In this document: in pieces, positions 9,871 to 22,445 of the stretch
Layout: every line of letters begins with the position of its first letter
Numbering within the stretch: the first letter of the stretch is position 1
Assembly (NCBI RefSeq): GCF_017410345.1
Contig: NZ_JAFQQZ010000025.1
Coordinates: forward strand, 1 to 32,065
Direction of reading: 5' to 3'
DNA: 32,065 bases
From: Methanobrevibacter sp.
GTDB taxonomy: Archaea > Methanobacteriota > Methanobacteria > Methanobacteriales > Methanobacteriaceae
Program-made: the position numbers and the translations under genes
The notes under the pieces: generated by a model
The model's database searches: none
Told to the model about the DNA's origin: nothing
Seen by the model: the letters and a program-made list of their open reading frames with translations, nothing else

Positions 9871-11178
9871 TTATATTTCCAATTGTCCCTCTTGGACCTT
9901 CTTTTCCTTATATTCAAAGTTCCTGTCAAATTCATCCACTTCTTCTTCATCAACATAAAAGACTTTTGGATTGTGGAATATTCCCTTATCATAATCGATA
10001 TCTTTAAACTTGTTTTCAAAGACCTTTATCATGAAAAATGGATTTTCTTCATTTGTATCCGTTCCATCCAGGAAGAAATTGTATTTGGATGCACTTTCAA
10101 ATCCGAATCTGCTGTAATAGTTCTCATCGCCGATTACAAAGATGAATGGAATGTTCATATCCCTTGCAAGTCTTAATGTATGATTTATTAATCTAGAGCC
10201 ATAGCCTTGCTTTTGATATTTGGAATCTATAGCTATTGGGCCCAAGACAACAGCATCCTTGCTTCCTTCATTTAGTTTAATGTCTACTCCATATCTGTTT
10301 TCCTTATAAAGATTCAATCGGCCCTTTGAATAGTTTATATGCCCTATGATTTCATTATCCTTTTCCATCACATATGCCAAATCCTCTATGAAACTGCCAT
10401 CCTCCCTTAAGTTGTGGACGATATAATGTTCATAGGCTCCAGGACGATAGACATTCCAGAATGCATCCCTTACAAGATTTTCCACTTTTAAGTAATCATT
10501 CTCTTCTTCCAATCTGATGGATTCTTCATTTGATTTGTCATCTTTATTTTTCCCTTTATCCTCTATCTTTACGGAATTGAAGAGTAATTTCATATGGGCT
10601 GTTGTTCTCTTTTCGAAATCCTTTAGGAACTTTTCATCATCTTCAGGATAATTGATTATGAAATGTTCATACAATAGGAATAGCCCATAATAGTAAAATG
10701 ATTCTGCAAGCTGCTTTATGTCAGCATCTTTCTTGATGAATCTTTTCTCTTTCATCAGTTCAAATAGGTCCTGCCATCCTTTTATTGCATATCCTATGAT
10801 TGCTTCCTTTACAAAATTCCTTATCTTTTCATTGTGATATGATTCGACCAAAAAGATTCTTGTAATCCTCATCATCTTTGGCTCGGATAATTTTAAGATG
10901 AATCTATCGCTTCCCTCCTTATAGAATTGGTCAAAATCCATATCCAGATTTTCCCTGGATTGCATTACAGGGGCTTCTTCCTTAAGCATTTCATTGATGT
11001 AGTAGCTTAATATGGATTCTAGAATTGATTCCTTGCTTTGGTAGTGGTTATAGATGGAACTTTCCTTTATTCCAACTTCCTTAGCTATTTGGCGTATTGA
11101 CACTCCATCGTATCCGTATTTTGAGAATAAGTCAATGGAAACGTCAAATATCCTCATCTTTGTATTTTTTTTAGCCAT
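9871..11178 (-). CDS. TetR-type regulator fused to a GNAT acetyltransferase
   Basis: The 435-residue protein joins two domains in one continuous frame. Residues 5-200 form a TetR/AcrR regulator. The helix-turn-helix is about 27-46 (SIRQIAKEVGIKESSIYNHY), followed by a helical ligand and dimer domain. A charged linker (205-225) leads to a YhbS-like GNAT N-acetyltransferase at about 226-390, with the acetyl-CoA loop QKQGYG at 322-327 and the YSRFGF segment at 355-360. The ATG at 11178 has AAGGAG six bases upstream. Two ACTAAC-n4-GTTAGT dyads flank the likely TATA box upstream, so autoregulation is likely. It probably leads an operon with the flavoprotein, acyltransferase and ung genes. The effector and acetyl acceptor are unknown; the GNAT part could modify a toxic compound sensed by the TetR part. 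Confidence 0.9.
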   Translation of the reverse strand: MAKKNTKMRIFDVSIDLFSKYGYDGVSIRQIAKEVGIKESSIYNHYQSKESILESILSYYINEMLKEEAPVMQSRENLDMDFDQFYKEGSDRFILKLSEPKMMRITRIFLVESYHNEKIRNFVKEAIIGYAIKGWQDLFELMKEKRFIKKDADIKQLAESFYYYGLFLLYEHFIINYPEDDEKFLKDFEKRTTAHMKLLFNSVKIEDKGKNKDDKSNEESIRLEEENDYLKVENLVRDAFWNVYRPGAYEHYIVHNLREDGSFIEDLAYVMEKDNEIIGHINYSKGRLNLYKENRYGVDIKLNEGSKDAVVLGPIAIDSKYQKQGYGSRLINHTLRLARDMNIPFIFVIGDENYYSRFGFESASKYNFFLDGTDTNEENPFFMIKVFENKFKDIDYDKGIFHNPKVFYVDEEEVDEFDRNFEYKEKKVQEGQLEI

Positions 11179-14894: not shown

Positions 14895-15067
14895 CTAAAC
14901 TCTCCTATAATTCCTAGATAATTTGATTAAATATAATGTTTTTTAATATTTTAAATCATATTTTTTTAAAATACATATCTATTTTTGAATTTTAGATTAA
15001 ATATATTTTATCAATTTTAATATTATTTTTCAATATTTTTAAGATATCTTTAAAATTTTCATAAAGA

Positions 15068-15126: not shown

Positions 15127-15933
15127 ATGGATTTCAGCGTTAAGGATTTTAATGTAAGGCTTAGAACCATCAAGCTTTGGGAGTTAAGCATTGCATTGGT
15201 CATTTCATTTTTACTGACAGGATTTGTTGAGAATTACTTGAATGTATATTCTCCACAGTTTGAGTATATTCTCTTCTTCTGCTTCATGATGGTATTCTTC
15301 CTGATTGCCACATTTGGCACAACAGGATTCAATAAGGATGTCAATGATCTCTTTAAGACCAGCAATATTCTAAGGGTTTTGATTTTAGCAATTGCAAACA
15401 TTTTTATAGCATTTTTCATTCAAACCATGTTTTCCCCTTTGGATTCGCTTTTCAGTATGATCAATTCAATTTCCTTGCCTTTAATGGATATTGCGAGTGG
15501 TTCAAGCAATCCTTTGGTCTTTTTTGTTGAAATGTTTTCAGCAATTATCATTGCACCGATATCTGAGGAATTGTTCTTTAGAGGAGTCTTATTTAACAGG
15601 TTGAAAATCAGAAAAGGTTTCGTATTTGGTTTAATTGTCTCATCAATCATTTTCGGATTGTGCCATTTGAATTATCCGGACCATATTGCACATATAACCT
15701 ATACATGCATAATGGGAATGACTCTATGCATCCTATATTCAAGAACAGACAATTTGCTGTTGAATATGGTGGTTCATTCATTATACAATCTACTATCTTA
15801 TCTCATTGTATACACTCCATTCCAATATCTCCTGATAGGTGGCGAGTTCAGCAGCCTAATGGGTCTCTTGCTTCTCTCTTCATTGATATTCATTCCAGTT
15901 TACATTCTTTATTTCACCTATAAGCTGAAATAA
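15127..15933 (+). CDS. CPBP-type intramembrane protease, copy 1
   Basis: This 268-residue membrane protein belongs to the CPBP (CAAX protease and bacteriocin-processing) family of glutamic-type intramembrane proteases. The catalytic motifs are complete: EELFFR with Glu147-Glu148 and Arg152, His180 in GLCH, and His217/Asn221 in HSLYN. The first helix follows a short cytosolic segment, DFNVRLRTIK, shared with copy 2. I place the start at the ATG 15127 rather than the GTG at 15118, because GGTGAT (15117-15122) lies four bases ahead of the ATG. Bacterial relatives process peptides, act in immunity to self-made bacteriocins or cleave prenylated proteins. The substrate here is unknown. It opens a run of plus-strand membrane-protein genes. 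Confidence 0.9.
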   Translation: MDFSVKDFNVRLRTIKLWELSIALVISFLLTGFVENYLNVYSPQFEYILFFCFMMVFFLIATFGTTGFNKDVNDLFKTSNILRVLILAIANIFIAFFIQTMFSPLDSLFSMINSISLPLMDIASGSSNPLVFFVEMFSAIIIAPISEELFFRGVLFNRLKIRKGFVFGLIVSSIIFGLCHLNYPDHIAHITYTCIMGMTLCILYSRTDNLLLNMVVHSLYNLLSYLIVYTPFQYLLIGGEFSSLMGLLLLSSLIFIPVYILYFTYKLK

Positions 15934-15965
15934 GGACATATTTTTTCAAGATTTAATTGAAAAGA

Positions 15966-15974
15966 TTTATAAAT
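15966..15974 (+). promoter_or_regulatory. TATA box of the second CPBP protease gene
   Basis: TTTATAAAT, again preceded by AAAGA, lies in the 105-base gap between the two CPBP genes. The second copy is therefore probably transcribed from its own promoter. Confidence 0.55.
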
Positions 15975-16038
15975 GTTAAGCCAATAATATTTAAAACACT
16001 CATTTAAAATCATTTTTTAATTATATTTGGTGCATAAA

Positions 16039-16839
16039 ATGGACTTTGATGTAACTGACTTTAATGTAAGGCTTAGGACAATAAGGATAAGGGAAGCCGC
16101 TATAGCTATTGTGATTGCTTTCATCTTGACTGTAGCACTTGGCTTATCATATCCTCCACTTGCGGAAAATGAGGATCTGCTGCTATTTCCTTTCCTTTTC
16201 TTCATATTGATATTCTTCATCTGGGCCTTAAGAGGCACTCATGGATTGGGAAATGACTTCTCAAAGCTTTTTGAAAGGGATAACAGTATGGAAATACTTT
16301 ACATATTCCTAATAAATATCCTGTTTGCATTTATCGTAGTGGCTTTCTTTTCAAGCTTTGATACACTTTATGGCACTTTGTTTCCAGATATGGAGCCATT
16401 GTTGGACTTCACTCCAACCTTTGTTGATCCGATTGCTTTCATTATTGAGGCAATCTCTTCAATAATATTTGCACCTATCCTTGAGGAATTGCTGTTTAGG
16501 GGAGTTCTATTCAATAGATTGAAAATAAGGACTGGAATAATTGCTGCAATGATCATATCTTCGGCGATTTTCGCTATCGGACATGAATTCGGTGGAATGA
16601 TCAGTGCGTTCCTATTCGGAATGTGCATGTGCATTGTCTATTTGAAGACAGACAATATTCTTATGACAATGTCAATTCACTTCATAAACAATCTTGTGGC
16701 GGTCCTTCTTGAAGCGGCAAATTCAGATGCCTTCTTGTTCCAAATGCCAGTTTTGCCTATAACATTGTTGGTTTCTGTCATTGCAGGTCTTTTAATACTT
16801 TTATATATCTTTAAAGAGACTAAGCTATTAACGGCTTGA
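16039..16839 (+). CDS. CPBP-type intramembrane protease, copy 2
   Basis: The 266-residue paralogue of the preceding gene opens with MDFDVTDFNVRLRTIR, almost matching copy 1. The motif EELLFRGVLFNRLKIR (Glu149-Glu150, Arg154), His182 in AIGHEFGG and His214/Asn218 in HFINN are intact, so it should be active. The start is set at ATG 16039, not the upstream TTG at 16027, because GGTG (16029-16032) is correctly placed for it. The two copies share a 17-base identical stretch within their 5' coding parts, which points to a tandem duplication. The loop between the central helices and the C-terminal helices differ most, which would suit different substrates. The substrate is unknown. Confidence 0.9.
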   Translation: MDFDVTDFNVRLRTIRIREAAIAIVIAFILTVALGLSYPPLAENEDLLLFPFLFFILIFFIWALRGTHGLGNDFSKLFERDNSMEILYIFLINILFAFIVVAFFSSFDTLYGTLFPDMEPLLDFTPTFVDPIAFIIEAISSIIFAPILEELLFRGVLFNRLKIRTGIIAAMIISSAIFAIGHEFGGMISAFLFGMCMCIVYLKTDNILMTMSIHFINNLVAVLLEAANSDAFLFQMPVLPITLLVSVIAGLLILLYIFKETKLLTA

Positions 16840-16975
16840 ATGCTTTAATTTTATTTTTTATAATTTTTTTACTATTTTTCTATTCTTTCTATTATTTTAA
16901 TTTCTTTTACTATTTTTCCTAAATTATTTTTTTTTCTGCTTTAAATCAACTATTTTTACCAAAATCATCGAAAGA

Positions 16976-17072
16976 TTTATATAGGATGTAATATAATTTT
17001 TACATATAGAGATGTAATATAATTTTTACATTTGGAATTTATTTATTACATTTGGAATGTATTTATTACATT
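16976..17072 (+). promoter_or_regulatory. Repeat-rich promoter of the Xre regulator gene
   Basis: TTTATATA (16976-16983, preceded by AAAGA) is the likely TATA box. Directly after it, ATGTAATATAATTTTTACAT occurs twice (16986-17005 and 17012-17031, period 26). A 20-base unit TTTGGAATTTATTTATTACA is then repeated in tandem (17031-17050, 17051-17070; one mismatch). TACATT-TGG-AATGTA (17047-17061) and AATGTA-TTTAT-TACATT (17056-17072) form further dyads. At least seven TGTA/TACA half-sites fit in 86 bases. They are probably binding sites for the encoded regulator. Confidence 0.7.
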
Positions 17073-17114
17073 TTTATAATCTATATTTAATTAGCTATCG
17101 TTTAAAGTGATTAT

Positions 17115-17351
17115 ATGAAAACAATTATAAGATATTTGAGGCAGGAGATCAAGATGAGTCAGCAGGATTTGGCCGAATCAGCCGGTGTGACCCGTCAGAC
17201 AATCAATGCCTTGGAAAACGGACGGTATAATCCCTCTTTACTTTTGGCTTATAAGATTACAAGGATCCTGAATGAGGCCACTTATGGCGAAGATAAGGAT
17301 TCCTATTTAAGTATAGAGGATATTTTTAAATTTAGTGATGACGAACTTTAA
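17115..17351 (+). CDS. Small Xre-type helix-turn-helix regulator
   Basis: The 78-residue protein is essentially one Cro/CI-type helix-turn-helix domain. It reads LRQEIKMSQQDLAESAGV, then TRQTINALENGRYNPSLLLAYKI, the recognition-helix pattern of YozG-like regulators. A short acidic tail of about 20 residues follows. The ATG at 17115 has AAAGTGAT four to eleven bases ahead. The upstream region is packed with TGTA/TACA dyads, which suggests autoregulation, perhaps with control of the neighbouring membrane genes. No ligand-binding domain is present, so any signal must come through a partner protein, proteolysis or protein level. In many prokaryotes such small regulators sit next to membrane-protein genes, as here. 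Confidence 0.9.
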   Translation: MKTIIRYLRQEIKMSQQDLAESAGVTRQTINALENGRYNPSLLLAYKITRILNEATYGEDKDSYLSIEDIFKFSDDEL

Positions 17352-17363
17352 AAATTAAAAGAT

Positions 17364-17388
17364 ATCAAAGTTAAACAATAACTTTGAT
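17364..17388 (+). terminator. Perfect 10-base inverted repeat after the Xre gene
   Basis: ATCAAAGTTA (17364-17373) and its exact complement TAACTTTGAT (17379-17388) surround a five-base loop, AACAA. It starts 13 bases after the Xre stop and lies 45 bases before the DUF4013 start. It may end the Xre transcript or act as an operator or leader hairpin for the next gene. Only moderately T-rich DNA follows. Confidence 0.55.
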
Positions 17389-17432
17389 TCAGATTTATTT
17401 ATTGACTTAATATGTTTAGGGGTTAGATAAAA

Positions 17433-18167
17433 ATGATATTAGACATTTATAAGGATTCTTTAGAATATTCTGCTAAAGACTTAAAGACATTGTTAATATT
17501 GGGAGTGACTTACTTCTTGAGTTTCCTTTTCCTTCCAATATTCCTGATTTACGGTTATTCCTACAGGATTACCAAGATCTCTGTAGAAGGTATGATAAAC
17601 GGCAATGATCCATTGCCAGCATTTGACAACATAATTGACATGTTTGTAGATGGGATAAAGGTTGTCCTGGTCTATCTGGTCTACCTGTTGGTTCCATTCA
17701 TAATCTTCATATTGTTTGCAATCGTATCCAGTGCAATTGGAGGATACGGTGAATCCGCATTGATGGGTATCGGTTCCATCATCACCGTTGTAGCTATTGT
17801 ATTCGCTTATCTCATGAGCATGTTCGGTGTGGCAAACATGGCAAATTATGACGGTTCACTTGGAAAGGCATTTGACTTCAATGAGATCATTGAAATCATC
17901 AAGTCTGTCGGTGTTGTAAGGAGCATAGGTGCTTATCTCGGATTGGCTGTCATTAGCTTTGCAATTACAGCAACTGTTTTCCTATTGATCTTGTTTGTAT
18001 TCGGATTCTTTGGAATCATTACAGGCACTTTAGGATTTGGCGAAGCAGCAGGAGGAATCTTTGTTGCAGGATTCTTCATAGCATACTTTGTGATGTTATT
18101 CATTGTAAGTCCTTTTACCATGATCTTGCAATCAAGAGCAAGCGGATTGATTTACAATCTTCATTAG
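17433..18167 (+). CDS. DUF4013-type membrane protein, copy 1
   Basis: The 244-residue hydrophobic protein has about six membrane segments. The features I recognise as DUF4013-like are the N-terminal ILDIYKDSLEYSAKDLKTLLILG, a Gly-Tyr-rich first hairpin (IYGYSYRITKISVEGMINGNDPLPAFDN) and a soluble loop with FVDGIK. DUF4013 proteins are numerous in Methanobacteriales and have no assigned function. A good AGGGG site precedes the ATG. It lies 81 bases after the Xre gene and 52 before a paralogue, so the two DUF4013 genes probably form a unit. The C-terminus ends IVSPFTMILQSRASGLIYNLH, a short cytosolic or membrane-edge tail. It could be a permease-like or scaffold protein; nothing in the sequence decides. 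Confidence 0.75.
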   Translation: MILDIYKDSLEYSAKDLKTLLILGVTYFLSFLFLPIFLIYGYSYRITKISVEGMINGNDPLPAFDNIIDMFVDGIKVVLVYLVYLLVPFIIFILFAIVSSAIGGYGESALMGIGSIITVVAIVFAYLMSMFGVANMANYDGSLGKAFDFNEIIEIIKSVGVVRSIGAYLGLAVISFAITATVFLLILFVFGFFGIITGTLGFGEAAGGIFVAGFFIAYFVMLFIVSPFTMILQSRASGLIYNLH

Positions 18168-18219
18168 GTGATTGAAATAAATTAATTTTTATTTATTTTT
18201 TTCTTATATTGGTGAGTTT

Positions 18220-19071
18220 ATGGCTAGTATTACTGATTTAGTGAAAGAAGGATTGAAATATCCTTTAAATGATTGGAAAAAGGTTTTGACCTTAGGTATT
18301 ATATTTCTCATTTCAAGTTTGGTTTCATTTGCAATGGAATATCTGGTTTTTGATTCCATAAGGGTCATGTCAGATTTTGCTCCTTTGGATACAGTTCAAG
18401 GGGCTTTAGCAGCAATTCCTCCAAATAATATGGCATTGATCATATTGTCATGGATTGTAACACTTATATTGATGATATTCGCTTCAGGATACACCTACGA
18501 TGTCATCAAATATGCTTTGGAAGGAAAATTCGAACTTCCAGGCTTTTCAGACATCAAAGGATTGTTCGTGAAAGGTGTTCGTTCATTCATTGTTGGAATA
18601 GCTTATTCCATCTTGCCTATTATATTATTCTTACTTGGATTTATGTTGACTGTAAATGAGGCAGTTGGAGCTTCAGTAAATGCAATAGGTGGAATCATTT
18701 TGCTCATTGCAATCGTATTTGCAGTATTCTGTGCATTGATGGAAGTAATTGCATTATGTCATATGGTCAAGAATGATGAATTGGCTGCAGCGTTCAGATT
18801 CAAGGAAATATGGGCATTGATCAAGAACTTAGGATGGGGAAGATTCATCGGAATCTTACTCTTCACTGTCATTGCAATCATGATCATTACCGTATTCTTT
18901 GGCTTCATATTTGGACTTGTTGCCACAATCATCAGCATGATTTTTGGTTCTGCACTTGTACTGGCTTTAGTGAACATGATTCTAAATTCATTGCTTCTTA
19001 ATCCATATGCAAGCATTGTAATAAGCAGGGTTTATGGATCTGTTTATAATGAAGCAGCTAAAGTTGAATAA
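18220..19071 (+). CDS. DUF4013-type membrane protein, copy 2
   Basis: The 283-residue membrane protein is paralogous to the preceding gene product. It starts ASITDLVKEGLKYPLNDWKKVLTLG and carries the hairpin ASGYTYDVIKYALEGKFELPGFSDIKGLFVKGVR, which lines up with the GYSYRI...LPAF...FVDGIK segment of copy 1. Five to seven membrane segments are likely. Both proteins end with a similar helix and a short tail (NPYASIVISRVYGSVYNEA here). GGTGA lies five bases ahead of the ATG. The paralogues differ in the long first loop, where this copy has an insertion (SDFAPLDTVQGALAAIPPNN) expected outside the membrane core. The function is unknown; two adjacent, diverged copies would fit a hetero-oligomer. 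Confidence 0.75.
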   Translation: MASITDLVKEGLKYPLNDWKKVLTLGIIFLISSLVSFAMEYLVFDSIRVMSDFAPLDTVQGALAAIPPNNMALIILSWIVTLILMIFASGYTYDVIKYALEGKFELPGFSDIKGLFVKGVRSFIVGIAYSILPIILFLLGFMLTVNEAVGASVNAIGGIILLIAIVFAVFCALMEVIALCHMVKNDELAAAFRFKEIWALIKNLGWGRFIGILLFTVIAIMIITVFFGFIFGLVATIISMIFGSALVLALVNMILNSLLLNPYASIVISRVYGSVYNEAAKVE

Positions 19072-19116
19072 AAAAAACTGAGTATTAAAACTGAATTATA
19101 AACTATCAAACAAGAG

Positions 19117-19210
19117 AACTAGAAACTATTGGGTGATGCATAACTTATATTAAAACTCCTTAGAGTTAAAAAAATACTAAAAACAGAAAAACTAGAAACT
19201 ATTGGGTGAT
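19117..19210 (+). repeat. Direct repeat carrying duplicated ribosome-binding sites
   Basis: A 21-base sequence, AACTAGAAACTATT followed by GGGTGAT, occurs identically at 19117-19137 and 19190-19210, 73 bases apart. Similarity continues on both sides with small changes. Each copy ends in a strong GGGTGAT ribosome site but is followed by only a few codons (for example ATG CAT AAC TTA TAT TAA after copy 1). The copies may be remnants of duplicated gene starts or leader peptides. Confidence 0.7.
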
Positions 19211-19213
19211 AGC

Positions 19214-19255
19214 ATAATTAGAAATTAGAATAATCCTATTCTTTTTTCTAATTAT
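19214..19255 (+). terminator. 19-base-arm stem-loop
   Basis: Bases 19214-19232 pair with 19237-19255 at 17 of 19 positions (two T-T mismatches) around the loop ATCC. CTTTTTAAATT follows. It starts directly after the second 21-base repeat and 99 bases before the secreted-protein start. It could end the DUF4013 transcript or shape the leader of the next gene. Confidence 0.55.
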
Positions 19256-19312
19256 CTTTTTAAATTAATAATATTTTTAAAATTTTATTCAAAATGTAAA
19301 ATGGGTGATAAT

Positions 19313-20119
19313 TTGAAATTTGATTCAAGAATTTTAGGCATTTTATCTGCACTGTTGATTTTTGCAGTTGTTATTTCAAGTGCAGGTGCAGCCGATTTGG
19401 TAGCGAGTGGCATTGATAGCGATAATTTTGCTATTGATGTTCCTGAAGGAAGTGATTTTGTTAATGCAGCTACCACTAACTTGAATGTTGGTGATGTGGC
19501 TATGAACATGGAAGTCTTTGAAAATCAAGGTGAAAATGCAAATGATGTAAGCACAGTAATGTACTTAAAAGACGGTTCTTCTGATAAGAACATCATTTCA
19601 GATTTATACAATGACCTGAAGAATGATGGCCCTATCGTTGAGGAAACCGATGATTATTTCATTGTTGAAACAAAGGATGCAAACAATTGGAACTTCTTCA
19701 ATTTCGACATTGGAAATGATATTGATGGCTTATGGAACTTCGCAAGTGGAATCTTCTCAGATGATTCCAATGTAAACGTCACAACTGAAGATGCCGATGT
19801 GGAAGTTTCCAATGATGAGGGAGTACATATTGTCGGTGATGACAACACCACAGTTTCATTATCTACAAAAGGATTGGAGGTTTCCGATTCTTCTGGTGAA
19901 AATGTTTCCGTTTCAACTGATGGAGTAAAAGTCACTGATCCGAATGGTGAAAATTCAGTAGACACCAATGTTTCAATCGATGACCATATGATTTCAAATA
20001 TTGATAATTCTGATTATGCATTATGCATCAAGAATCCAGAAGGCGATCAAGTGATTGTAATTACTGGAAACGATTTGGAATTATTGAAATCAATTGCAGA
20101 AACTGCTTCTTTCAGTTAA
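19313..20119 (+). CDS. Secreted repeat-containing surface protein
   Basis: The start is best placed at TTG 19313, three bases after GGTGAT (19304-19309). An ATG at 19301 in the same frame would put that ribosome site inside the gene. The 268-residue product opens with a signal peptide (KFDSRILGILSALLIFAVVISSAGA, cleavage near AGA-AD). An acidic domain follows. Then four tandem units of about 17 residues (bases 19772-19975) follow the pattern [VL]-x-[VI]-x-D-x-x-G-E-N-V-S-[VL]-S-T-x-G, suggesting a small beta-solenoid. Several N-x-S/T sequons are present (NVT, NTT, NVS), consistent with archaeal N-glycosylation. No C-terminal anchor is seen, so the protein is probably released or bound through partners. 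The family is not recognised. It sits between membrane-protein and protease genes. Confidence 0.75.
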   Translation: MKFDSRILGILSALLIFAVVISSAGAADLVASGIDSDNFAIDVPEGSDFVNAATTNLNVGDVAMNMEVFENQGENANDVSTVMYLKDGSSDKNIISDLYNDLKNDGPIVEETDDYFIVETKDANNWNFFNFDIGNDIDGLWNFASGIFSDDSNVNVTTEDADVEVSNDEGVHIVGDDNTTVSLSTKGLEVSDSSGENVSVSTDGVKVTDPNGENSVDTNVSIDDHMISNIDNSDYALCIKNPEGDQVIVITGNDLELLKSIAETASFS

Positions 20120-20136
20120 ATTGATTGTTTAATTGA

Positions 20137-20222
20137 TTTATTTTATTTTTCTTTTTATTCGTTTCATTCTTTTTTTCCCCATTTTTATTTTTTTATTTTT
20201 TCATTTTCCTTTTCTTTTTCAT
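20137..20222 (+). terminator. Long pyrimidine tract after the secreted-protein gene
   Basis: From 20141 to 20220 only 8 of 80 bases are purines, and most are T. Archaeal RNA polymerase stops at T-rich tracts, and this one lies 20 bases after the stop codon. It is probably the terminator of the secreted-protein gene, with no hairpin needed. Confidence 0.6.
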
Positions 20223-20286
20223 ATTAAACTTAAATATTATAAAATTGATACTAAAAAAATAGAACTATTAATATGAAAGGAAAAAG

Positions 20287-21102
20287 ATGATTTGCATGAT
20301 TAGATTAAATGATTTTTTAGATAGATTATCCATAATAAAGGTTTTATCATTCTTTTTGTTCCTTATTTTAGTTTTGACCTTAATTCCAATGATTCTTCAT
20401 TTGAATATGGGAAATCTGGTCTTCAAATTCATTTTATATGGGATCATGCTGATATTTTTTGCTTATAAATTAAATGGCATTGATTTTGATGAGATTTCAT
20501 TCAAGGATGCCTTAAGAAATGAATATGATTCAATCTTCAAGGTCTCTGACATTTATCATATCTCATTTATTGTGATTTCAAACATTCTATTCGTTTCAGC
20601 AATCTATTTTGTTTTGAAATATTTGAGCTCCTTATCAATAATCGGTTTTGATTCCCCTCTTTTTGGCGATTTCAGTTCAGTAAGTGCTTTAATATTGGTT
20701 CTTTACTTTATCACTGTAGTGATATTGTCTCCAATAATAGAAGAGCTATTGTTTAGGGGAATATTCCTCAGAAGATTCAATAAGGAATTGGATAATCTGA
20801 CTTTGGCCATACTGATATCTTCAGTCTTGTTTGGAATCTGCCATAACTTTGGAGGAATATTGGGAGCTATTCTATTCGGTATCTGCGTTTCCATACTTTA
20901 TGTAAAGTCTAAGAATATTCTAGTGCCAATATTTGCCCACTTCCTGAATAATCTCCTTTCATTCCTGCTTGGAGTAGGCGGAATTGAAAGATTGATCCAA
21001 TCCAATTCAATTGTCATCATTCTAATAATCATATTAGCCATTGTCTCTAACTTCATTCTCTTTAAAGCCATTTTCAGTGAATGGCCTAAGAAAATGGAAT
21101 GA
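20287..21102 (+). CDS. CPBP-type intramembrane protease, copy 3
   Basis: The 271-residue membrane protein is a third CPBP protease. It has Glu152-Glu153 and Arg157 in EELLFRGIFLRRF, His186 in GICHNFGG and His218/Asn222 in HFLNN, so the active site is intact. It lacks the DFNVRLRTI N-terminus of copies 1 and 2. Its nearest resemblance is the catalytic half of copy 2 (GHEFGG versus CHNFGG, SIHFINNL versus FAHFLNNL). The ATG at 20287 has AAAGG six bases ahead; the in-frame ATG at 20296 is an alternative start. It lies downstream of the secreted-protein gene behind a strong T tract, so it probably has its own promoter. The substrate is unknown; the secreted neighbour is one candidate. Confidence 0.88.
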   Translation: MICMIRLNDFLDRLSIIKVLSFFLFLILVLTLIPMILHLNMGNLVFKFILYGIMLIFFAYKLNGIDFDEISFKDALRNEYDSIFKVSDIYHISFIVISNILFVSAIYFVLKYLSSLSIIGFDSPLFGDFSSVSALILVLYFITVVILSPIIEELLFRGIFLRRFNKELDNLTLAILISSVLFGICHNFGGILGAILFGICVSILYVKSKNILVPIFAHFLNNLLSFLLGVGGIERLIQSNSIVIILIIILAIVSNFILFKAIFSEWPKKME

Positions 21103-21187
21103 TTTTTTTTTTAAAAACTGATTTTAAAAATAAGGCCCTTTCCATTTAATGCCAATTCAATAATTTTTTATAATTATAATCATAAAC

Positions 21188-21196
21188 TTTATAAGA
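21188..21196 (+). promoter_or_regulatory. TATA box placed for a leaderless M50 transcript
   Basis: CTTTATAAG lies with its centre about 26 bases before the ATG at 21218. That is the archaeal TATA-to-start distance, and no ribosome site is visible between them. Transcription is predicted to start at or next to the ATG. Confidence 0.45.
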
Positions 21197-21217
21197 TTAT
21201 AAAATATAATTTAAGTT

Positions 21218-21823
21218 ATGTTTAGATTTACAAAAAAAGAGATAAGAGATTTAATCATATCCTTTATAGTGATTGCTTTAGGATTTACCATTCTCTACTC
21301 CAATGGGGATTACAGCCACATAGGGCTTGTTTTTCCAGTGGTCATGATTGGAGTGGGATTGGGATTCATTTTCCACGAACTGGGACATAAGTTCGTTGCA
21401 ATGCATTATGGATACTATGCGGAATATGAGCTATGGCCTACAGGATTGATCATTGCACTTGCAAGTTCATTTTTCGGATTCATATTTGCGGCTCCTGGAG
21501 CGGTTGTCATTTACAGTCAGGGAATGGAAGAGAAGACAAACGGTATCATTTCCATTGCAGGGCCAATTGTAAATATCGTATTGGGATTGATATTCTTCCT
21601 TATTTTAGGATCTCTTGGAGATTTCATATACACTGATGTTGGAGCTATTGTCTATCTGATCTGTGTCCTTGGTACCAGAATCAATTTCTTCCTAGCAGCC
21701 TTCAACCTATTGCCGATACCTCCATTGGATGGTTCTAAAGTAATGGCTTGGAGCATTCCTATCTGGTTGGTCACATTCGCAATCGCTGCACTTTTAGTTT
21801 TATTCTTCGGAGGAATCCTATAA
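21218..21823 (+). CDS. M50 (site-2-type) intramembrane zinc metalloprotease
   Basis: The 201-residue membrane protein has about six helices. It carries the two zinc-site motifs of M50/S2P proteases: HELGH at 53-57 inside a helix, and NLLPIPPLDG at 163-172, whose Asp171 is the third ligand. The ATG is the only reasonable start. No ribosome site precedes it, and a TATA box sits about 26 bases upstream, so the mRNA may be leaderless. It lacks PDZ and CBS domains, so it is a minimal form, common in archaea. Family members cleave membrane-bound regulators or processed peptides within the bilayer. It is the last protease of the cluster, 115 bases after CPBP copy 3. Its substrate is unknown. Confidence 0.88.
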   Translation: MFRFTKKEIRDLIISFIVIALGFTILYSNGDYSHIGLVFPVVMIGVGLGFIFHELGHKFVAMHYGYYAEYELWPTGLIIALASSFFGFIFAAPGAVVIYSQGMEEKTNGIISIAGPIVNIVLGLIFFLILGSLGDFIYTDVGAIVYLICVLGTRINFFLAAFNLLPIPPLDGSKVMAWSIPIWLVTFAIAALLVLFFGGIL

Positions 21824-22038: not shown

Positions 22039-22200
22039 ATGGCAAAGAAAGATAACAAGATCAGCATGCCTATGAGTGGGGCAGGTTTAGTAAGATACTT
22101 CGATGACGAAAGTGTAGGTCCAAAAATTGCTCCTGAAATAGTCATCGCTATTACTGTAATTTTAGGAATCTTCTGTTTCATCTTAAGATTCTCTGTATAG
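22039..22200 (+). CDS. secG: Preprotein translocase subunit SecG (Sec61-beta)
   Basis: This small 53-residue protein begins MAKKDNKISMPMSGAGLVRY. It has the archaeal Sec61-beta pattern: a basic N-terminus, M-P-x-S-G-A-G-L-x-R-Y/F-F, an acidic stretch (DDES), then IAPEIVIAITVILGIFCFIL as a single tail-anchor helix. It is the third subunit of the SecYEG/Sec61 channel in the cytoplasmic membrane. The ATG at 22039 follows ACGTGAT by four bases. It lies 245 bases upstream of the PolD large-subunit gene and is probably transcribed alone, because T-rich DNA follows its stop. Confidence 0.9.
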   Translation: MAKKDNKISMPMSGAGLVRYFDDESVGPKIAPEIVIAITVILGIFCFILRFSV

Positions 22201-22445
22201 ACTTTTTACGAATTATTCTTTTTTTAATTATTTTTTTTAATTTTAAAGGCCAATCCTTTGAGTTTATTTTCAAAGTATTTTGTTTGTCAATATACTAACT
22301 ATTTTTATTTTTTTAAGAATTCTTCAATTTTTCATTAGTTTTTATATGCTCTCTTAATATTTTTAAATATGATAAAATACATACTAATATTAGAGAAAAA
22401 ATAAGCAAAAAACAAGATTATATTTTTTATTTATCAGTGATTATA

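Follow-up and report, generated by a model that had tools for sequence, protein, structure and literature searches.

The 32,065-nucleotide contig NZ_JAFQQZ010000025.1 of Methanobrevibacter sp. (assembly GCF_017410345.1), the whole of which we refer to as the window, contains a gene for a small Xre-type regulator followed by two genes for polytopic membrane proteins of the DUF4013 family. An operator-like array lies at the promoter of these genes and is found again, elsewhere in the same genome, in front of the genes for an ATP-binding cassette (ABC) transporter pair. Comparison of promoters across related genomes gives good support for an operator-defined regulon made up of Xre, DUF4013 and the ABC pair. 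On balance we favor the view that this is an Xre-autorepressed membrane-protection regulon similar to LanFEG and BcrAB, beside which genus-specific CPBP intramembrane proteases and a duplicated M50 protease sit as stable neighbors. The predicted core of the locus is the Xre-DUF4013a-DUF4013b operon and not the proteases. A first-pass annotation of the window had placed four proteases together with Xre and DUF4013 in one system that makes, processes or resists a membrane-active peptide or responds to membrane stress. That group is real, conserved in the genus, centered on the membrane, and plausibly resists a membrane-active agent, but its proteases do not appear to form a single system or regulon with Xre and DUF4013.

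The predicted Xre operator array and its ABC partner

The Xre operon, its promoter and the distant ABC pair are made up as follows.
16971..16983, + strand: B recognition element (BRE)/TATA element of the Xre promoter (AAAGATTTATATA)
16986..17071, no strand: predicted Xre operator array, just 3′ of the TATA box
17115..17351, + strand: Xre, a 78-residue HTH_3 regulator (PF01381, 58.4 bits)
17433..18167, + strand: DUF4013a, polytopic membrane protein of the Xre operon (PF13197, 96.7 bits)
18220..19071, + strand: DUF4013b, polytopic membrane protein of the Xre operon (PF13197, 107.9 bits)
19215..19254, + strand: terminator-like hairpin with a run of T, separating DUF4013b from the gene for a secreted protein (-13.8 kcal/mol, z = -5.2)
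G000:C21, locus L114 4014-5757, outside the window: ABC ATPase-permease pair of the window genome

Directly 3′ of the TTTATATA of the Xre promoter stand two perfect palindromes of the form ATGTAA-N8-TTACAT (16986-17005 and 17012-17031; ATGTAATATAATTTTTACAT), followed by two 20-bp repeats that carry the same half-site and reach 17071. The palindrome is retained in 13 of 14 Xre promoters of the genus amid intergenic DNA that has otherwise diverged, and within the cluster Xre itself is the best-conserved protein, at 88-97% across most of the genus. As a conserved putative operator overlaps the promoter of the regulator's own gene, the Xre operon is predicted to be autoregulated.

Searching the whole genome for the pattern revealed a second, closely similar array (G000:C21:97900-97989) before the ABC ATPase-permease pair, and a TATA box with array precedes the orthologous pair in every genus genome that has it (12/12). 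When 61 genomes were searched with the pattern TTTATATA-N(1-6)-TGTAA-N8-TTACA, matches were found in 21, compared to none of the 61 for the reversed pattern that served as control. Within the genus, most of the matches fall in the promoters of Xre and of the ABC pair. Another four lie outside it, and three of these, from three further genera, immediately precede a DUF4013 or Xre gene (G019, G032 and G036). Judging by how little of such genomes lies upstream of DUF4013 genes, we estimate this placement to be far beyond chance. In G013, a genome with no ABC permease, TATA box and operator stand directly before a gene for a SpoIIM-family membrane protein (L217 1300).

The association of the ABC pair with Xre and DUF4013 is also seen in gene order. 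A collection-wide search with DUF4013a yielded 50 Methanobrevibacter loci (three labeled only 'archaeon'), and in a sister clade, whose proteins are about 50% identical, the operon reads Xre-DUF4013a-DUF4013b-(secreted)-ATPase-permease, with the copies of the secreted-protein gene located between DUF4013b and the ABC genes. The permease gene is downstream in the same operon at 31 of the 34 informative loci of this clade, and its ABC proteins share 64-73% (ATPase) and 72-78% (permease) of their residues with those of the distant pair in the window genome. None of these 31 loci contains a CPBP or M50 gene; the only CPBP case (L161, with the CPBP gene directly 3′ of DUF4013b) and the only M50 case (L166) are both divergent and without ABC genes. 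A further arrangement occurs in G022, where an Xre-DUF4013-DUF4013-PAP2 operon is divergent from ATPase-permease-permease; this is the only genome in which ATPase, permease and PAP2 phosphatase are found together. We note separately that G016:C8:1524-4152 (L224) encodes a further ATPase and permease of the ABC type (about 56% identical), that another DUF4013 gene follows this second pair directly, and that it has no strict operator match.

Resemblance to bacterial protection systems

For the ATPase, 185 NCBIfam families match, and TIGR03740, lantibiotic protection, scores highest among them, at 250.2 bits for the window genome and 255 for the sister clade; its cut-off is 309.75. For the permease the best match is MutG (TIGR03733; 32 against 117.2 bits), with MutE (TIGR03732) at 20 against 145.2 bits. 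Because both subunits fall below the NCBIfam cut-offs, lantibiotic protection is a resemblance here and not a membership; the permease does reach Pfam ABC2_membrane_4 (108.6 bits). Like LanFEG, the pair of the window genome joins an ATPase to a small ABC-2 permease behind a promoter predicted to be under the control of a regulator, and families of this kind give the best profile matches for both subunits. Unlike LanFEG, it is archaeal, sub-cut-off, built with a single permease in most species but with two in G022, not accompanied by lantibiotic genes and apparently co-regulated with DUF4013. PADLOC reported no anti-phage system, only generic helix-turn-helix and ATPase matches.

A PAP2 phosphatase is a member of bacterial bacitracin-resistance operons, and the likeness to BcrABC of Gram-positive bacteria lies in the ABC ATPase and permease and in the PAP2-family phosphatase that joins the G022 operon. 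The differences are that PAP2 is present in G022 only, that the regulator is a 78-residue Xre protein and that a pair of DUF4013 proteins is added. A third parallel is with SdpR/SdpI of Bacillus subtilis, an autorepressor-immunity operon. In both, a small regulator is co-transcribed, as predicted here, with polytopic membrane proteins that may act in a receptor or immunity role to relieve repression; Xre, however, is not of the ArsR family, DUF4013 is not SdpI, and membrane sequestration is conjectural in the present case. Since Xre has only 78 residues and no visible sensor domain, relief of its repression by the co-transcribed membrane proteins, by analogy with SdpR/SdpI, is a reasonable guess. 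The structure model of DUF4013a is that of an all-helical membrane protein with high confidence (mean predicted local distance difference test (pLDDT) score 93.8). A search of the PDB gave no match for it at E<=0.001, and a literature search on DUF4013 returned nothing relevant, the term being met only in cotton genetics.

We infer that Xre would bind the arrays that lie just 3′ of two TATA boxes, its own and that of the distant ABC pair, and so hold both promoters off. Attack on the envelope by a membrane-active or lipid-carrier-targeting compound of the lantibiotic or bacitracin kind would lift repression, whereupon the ABC pair would clear the agent from the membrane, with the DUF4013 proteins as a possible membrane sensor or protective partner. 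These archaea are indeed susceptible to such agents, as nisin is reported to be inhibitory to Methanobrevibacter boviskoreani (PMC13289728) and growth inhibition by bacitracin is seen in M. smithii and, to a lesser degree, in M. oralis (PMC11536694). That the latter two species stay bacitracin-inhibited is at the same time a further difference from BcrABC (PMC11536694).

Several observations weigh against a membrane-protection regulon of this kind. Neither ABC subunit attains its family cut-off, and neither expression nor resistance data turned up for Xre, for DUF4013 or for the ABC pair. Small Xre proteins, moreover, can act as activators too. The ABC pair is missing from some genomes of the genus, such as G013 and G003; in G003 an ABC-type array is intact (L218 3303; G003:C17:77303) and no ABC permease orthologue was found in this genome, possibly because the pump was lost and its switch left behind. 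Finally, TATA box and operator stand in G012 (L213 6807) and G018 (L215 6191) before a YtfJ-like (Spore_YtfJ) gene that is followed by a gene for a membrane protein. Both genes are possible members of the regulon in some species, and operators at this position suggest that envelope stress in general may be what the regulon answers to.

The proteases as neighbors of the Xre operon

The remaining genes of the cluster are the following.
15127..15933, + strand: CPBP1, Rce1-like intramembrane protease of 268 residues with seven transmembrane-like segments (PF02517, 80.5 bits)
16039..16839, + strand: CPBP2, intramembrane protease of 266 residues (PF02517, 76.4 bits)
19301..20119, + strand: secreted protein with a signal-like N-terminal helix and an alpha/beta domain split by a beta-repeat insert
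20287..21102, + strand: CPBP3, intramembrane protease of 271 residues (PF02517, 75.8 bits)
21218..21823, + strand: M50, small S2P-type metalloprotease (PF02163, 44.2 bits)

The open reading frame (ORF) lists of the window and the Pfam assignments confirm all eight genes in the order CPBP-CPBP-Xre-DUF4013-DUF4013-secreted-CPBP-M50 on the + strand, with the secreted protein and the small regulator among the proteases, just as the first-pass annotation had described. The corrected starts of CPBP1 and CPBP2 are probably ATG 15127 and ATG 16039. It was also right that all four proteases retain their catalytic motifs: the EExxxR, FxxxH and HxxxN motifs are intact in the three CPBPs (EELFFR/EELLFR, FGLCH/FAIGH/FGICH and HSLYN/HFINN/HFLNN), which all exceed the PF02517 cut-off of 22.4 (75.8-80.5 bits), and M50 has HELGH and FNLLPIPPLDG, conforming to HExxH and (N)xxPxxxLDG, and matches the PF02163 profile. 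The three CPBPs thus share an Rce1-like domain and complete catalytic motifs with the Abi, MrtJ and MroQ proteases, but they differ from these in staying under the cut-off of every named equivalog (MrtJ, MrtS, MroQ and ABC_perm_CPBP; best 58.8 bits against 435), and neither a C-terminal sorting tag that would be cognate to them nor a bacteriocin gene was found.

Three of the four CPBP genes and two of the six DUF4013 genes of the genome (1.84 Mb, 63 contigs) lie in this cluster, and the order is conserved in the genus, so the grouping is more than chance. The block purB / CPBP1-CPBP2-Xre-DUF4013a-DUF4013b-secreted-CPBP3-M50 / Sec61-beta-like / PolC recurs in many species of one Methanobrevibacter genus, with a CPBP1 orthologue 5′ of CPBP2 in most of them; in the divergent members G014, G017 and G001 the pieces stay near purB and PolC in altered order. 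Linkage of CPBP, DUF4013 and M50 in relatives, put forward earlier as a check, is therefore kept across the genus, whereas outside it CPBP and M50 are not beside Xre-DUF4013, so that there the island fails the refutation test which the first-pass annotation had set for it. We also considered, and rejected, an order-wide CPBP-DUF4013 linkage: the proximity (~2.6 kb) seen in other families comes from one and the same inherited locus, in which a gene of no relation (trm1-like, as judged by eye) stands between the two, and for that reason counts as weak support only. Pairwise identity is 38% between CPBP1 and CPBP2, 34% between CPBP2 and CPBP3, and 28% between CPBP1 and CPBP3. In a tree of 41 CPBPs, CPBP1, CPBP3 and most CPBP2 counterparts fall into supported groups with their equivalents from related species, some branches being open, which argues for old, vertically inherited paralogues and against a recent burst.

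The promoters of these genes set them apart from Xre. Neither in the window nor in seven relatives is a comparable palindrome present 5′ of CPBP1, CPBP2, CPBP3, the secreted-protein gene or M50. The three CPBPs and the duplicated M50 have separate promoters and are placed outside the predicted Xre regulon. The proposal that the four proteases and Xre-DUF4013 form one regulon is thus not supported, the consistent partner of Xre-DUF4013 being the ABC transporter encoded outside the window. Independent promoters of the AAAGATTTATA type had been offered as the sign of such a regulon, an argument that we reject: exact matches occur at 15063, 15961 and 16971, before CPBP1, CPBP2 and Xre only, the one before CPBP1 recurs in one of six aligned relatives, and these are generic, poorly conserved archaeal BRE/TATA elements.

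M50 is a genus-specific duplicate. Its orthologue elsewhere in the family and order adjoins YcaO- and TfuA-like genes (judged by eye), and the window genome carries both copies. The older copy is interrupted by a stop codon or split in G008 (C2:256216-256682) and G009 (C148:1174-1640; two pieces), while the cluster copy of G008 is intact. Between M50 and PolC there is, in addition, a genus-conserved 53-residue Sec61-beta-like membrane protein (22040-22201, + strand), which is under the 60-residue limit of the ORF list and had been overlooked in the first-pass annotation.

The secreted protein has no Pfam match and no C-terminal membrane anchor, and it was not found in some genomes of the genus, such as G013, in which the remaining cluster is present. 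Its structure model is weak, with a mean pLDDT of 59 (about 80-90 in parts of the domain), and structure matches were uninformative. TTG 19313, with a GGTGAT Shine-Dalgarno sequence 3 bases upstream, may be an alternative start. The gap 5′ of the gene (19110-19210) contains two copies of a CTAGAAACTATTGGGTGAT-like stretch, each with a Shine-Dalgarno-like GGTGAT, and pieces related to this stretch are seen in relatives. Several species have a gene of about 127-133 residues on the opposite strand between the secreted-protein gene (where present) and CPBP3 (L231 8322-8705 in G011, also L118, L121, L124 and L155; none in the window), so the single-strand arrangement is no rule.

Shared descent of the purB-PolC syntenic block together with tandem duplication, with no functional linkage, could by itself have brought CPBP and M50 next to the Xre operon. 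The flanking housekeeping genes are equally syntenic, there is no common operator, and M50 arose by duplication of a gene whose orthologue is located elsewhere. Against this, the set stays together in spite of insertions at its flanks or between its genes in several species and of reordering in G014 and G017, and in the more distant L161 a CPBP gene is again directly 3′ of DUF4013b. We regard shared descent alone as a serious contender, with somewhat less than an even chance of being correct. In bacteria, members of the CPBP family take part in immunity to bacteriocins, and by this analogy the CPBPs and M50 may serve the same theme of envelope protection as the predicted Xre regulon.

Other readings of the locus

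The Xre regulon could instead serve general envelope or lipid homeostasis (membrane remodeling), with an ABC-2 pair that exports a lipid or an endogenous compound. This would agree with the operators before YtfJ-like, SpoIIM-family and DUF4013-only genes in some species, with the lack of biosynthetic genes or a known resistance phenotype nearby, and with an ATPase that scores under the lantibiotic cut-off. We nonetheless think it rather unlikely, in that the best matches of both ABC subunits are families of lantibiotic protection and immunity and the G022 operon includes a PAP2 phosphatase, as bacterial bacitracin-resistance operons do.

An extension of the membrane-protection regulon that we favor, unlikely as it stands, is that DUF4013 and a small Xre make up an archaeal module for sensing envelope stress, in which DUF4013 would detect attack on the membrane or on a lipid carrier, relieve repression by Xre and turn on a LanFEG/BcrAB-like pump, the CPBPs and M50 forming a second, proteolytic arm. 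If true, a large archaeal protein family would gain its first function. DUF4013 proteins occur widely among methane-producing archaea and have no function assigned to them, and the operator links DUF4013 with a pump of the peptide-resistance-like kind in the genus that dominates among rumen methanogens. As nisin-type bacteriocins are considered for cutting ruminant methane, a resistance regulon in Methanobrevibacter would be of practical relevance, and the model predicts that its genes are induced on exposure.

Published expression data bear on the proteases. In a lauric-acid transcriptome of M. ruminantium M1, the CAAX protease gene mru_0231 is down by log2 1.09, and the other nameable cluster genes (Xre, the other CPBPs and M50) are not listed (PMC5816558). 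Counting genes back from nrdD (mru_0241) in G011, mru_0231 is CPBP1 or CPBP2, provided that G011 is M1. Because 71 regulated hypothetical genes are not displayed (PMC5816558), these data count as weak evidence against co-regulation. No candidate precursor of a peptide product is present in the ORF lists, intergenic ORFs of fewer than 60 residues not having been searched systematically. In a membrane-proteolysis island, peptide processing or degradation by the CPBPs and M50, or a stress response that they carry out through regulated intramembrane proteolysis, would have Xre for its regulator and the secreted protein for its substrate. Such an island would account for three of four CPBP genes lying together with an intact M50 and for the retention of the set across the genus even where order has changed (G014 and G017), and the CPBPs are old, separate lineages inherited vertically. 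We nevertheless consider it improbable given that CPBP and M50 are unlinked to Xre-DUF4013 outside the genus and have promoters without the operator, that the secreted protein is missing in some genomes (e.g. G013) and has no C-terminal transmembrane segment to act as substrate or sorting tag, and that mru_0231 alone among the nameable cluster genes was reported as changed, down about twofold.

Away from the cluster, the window encodes on the - strand (9874-11178) a 435-residue protein whose single reading frame joins an N-terminal TetR DNA-binding domain to a domain of the GNAT acetyltransferase type.

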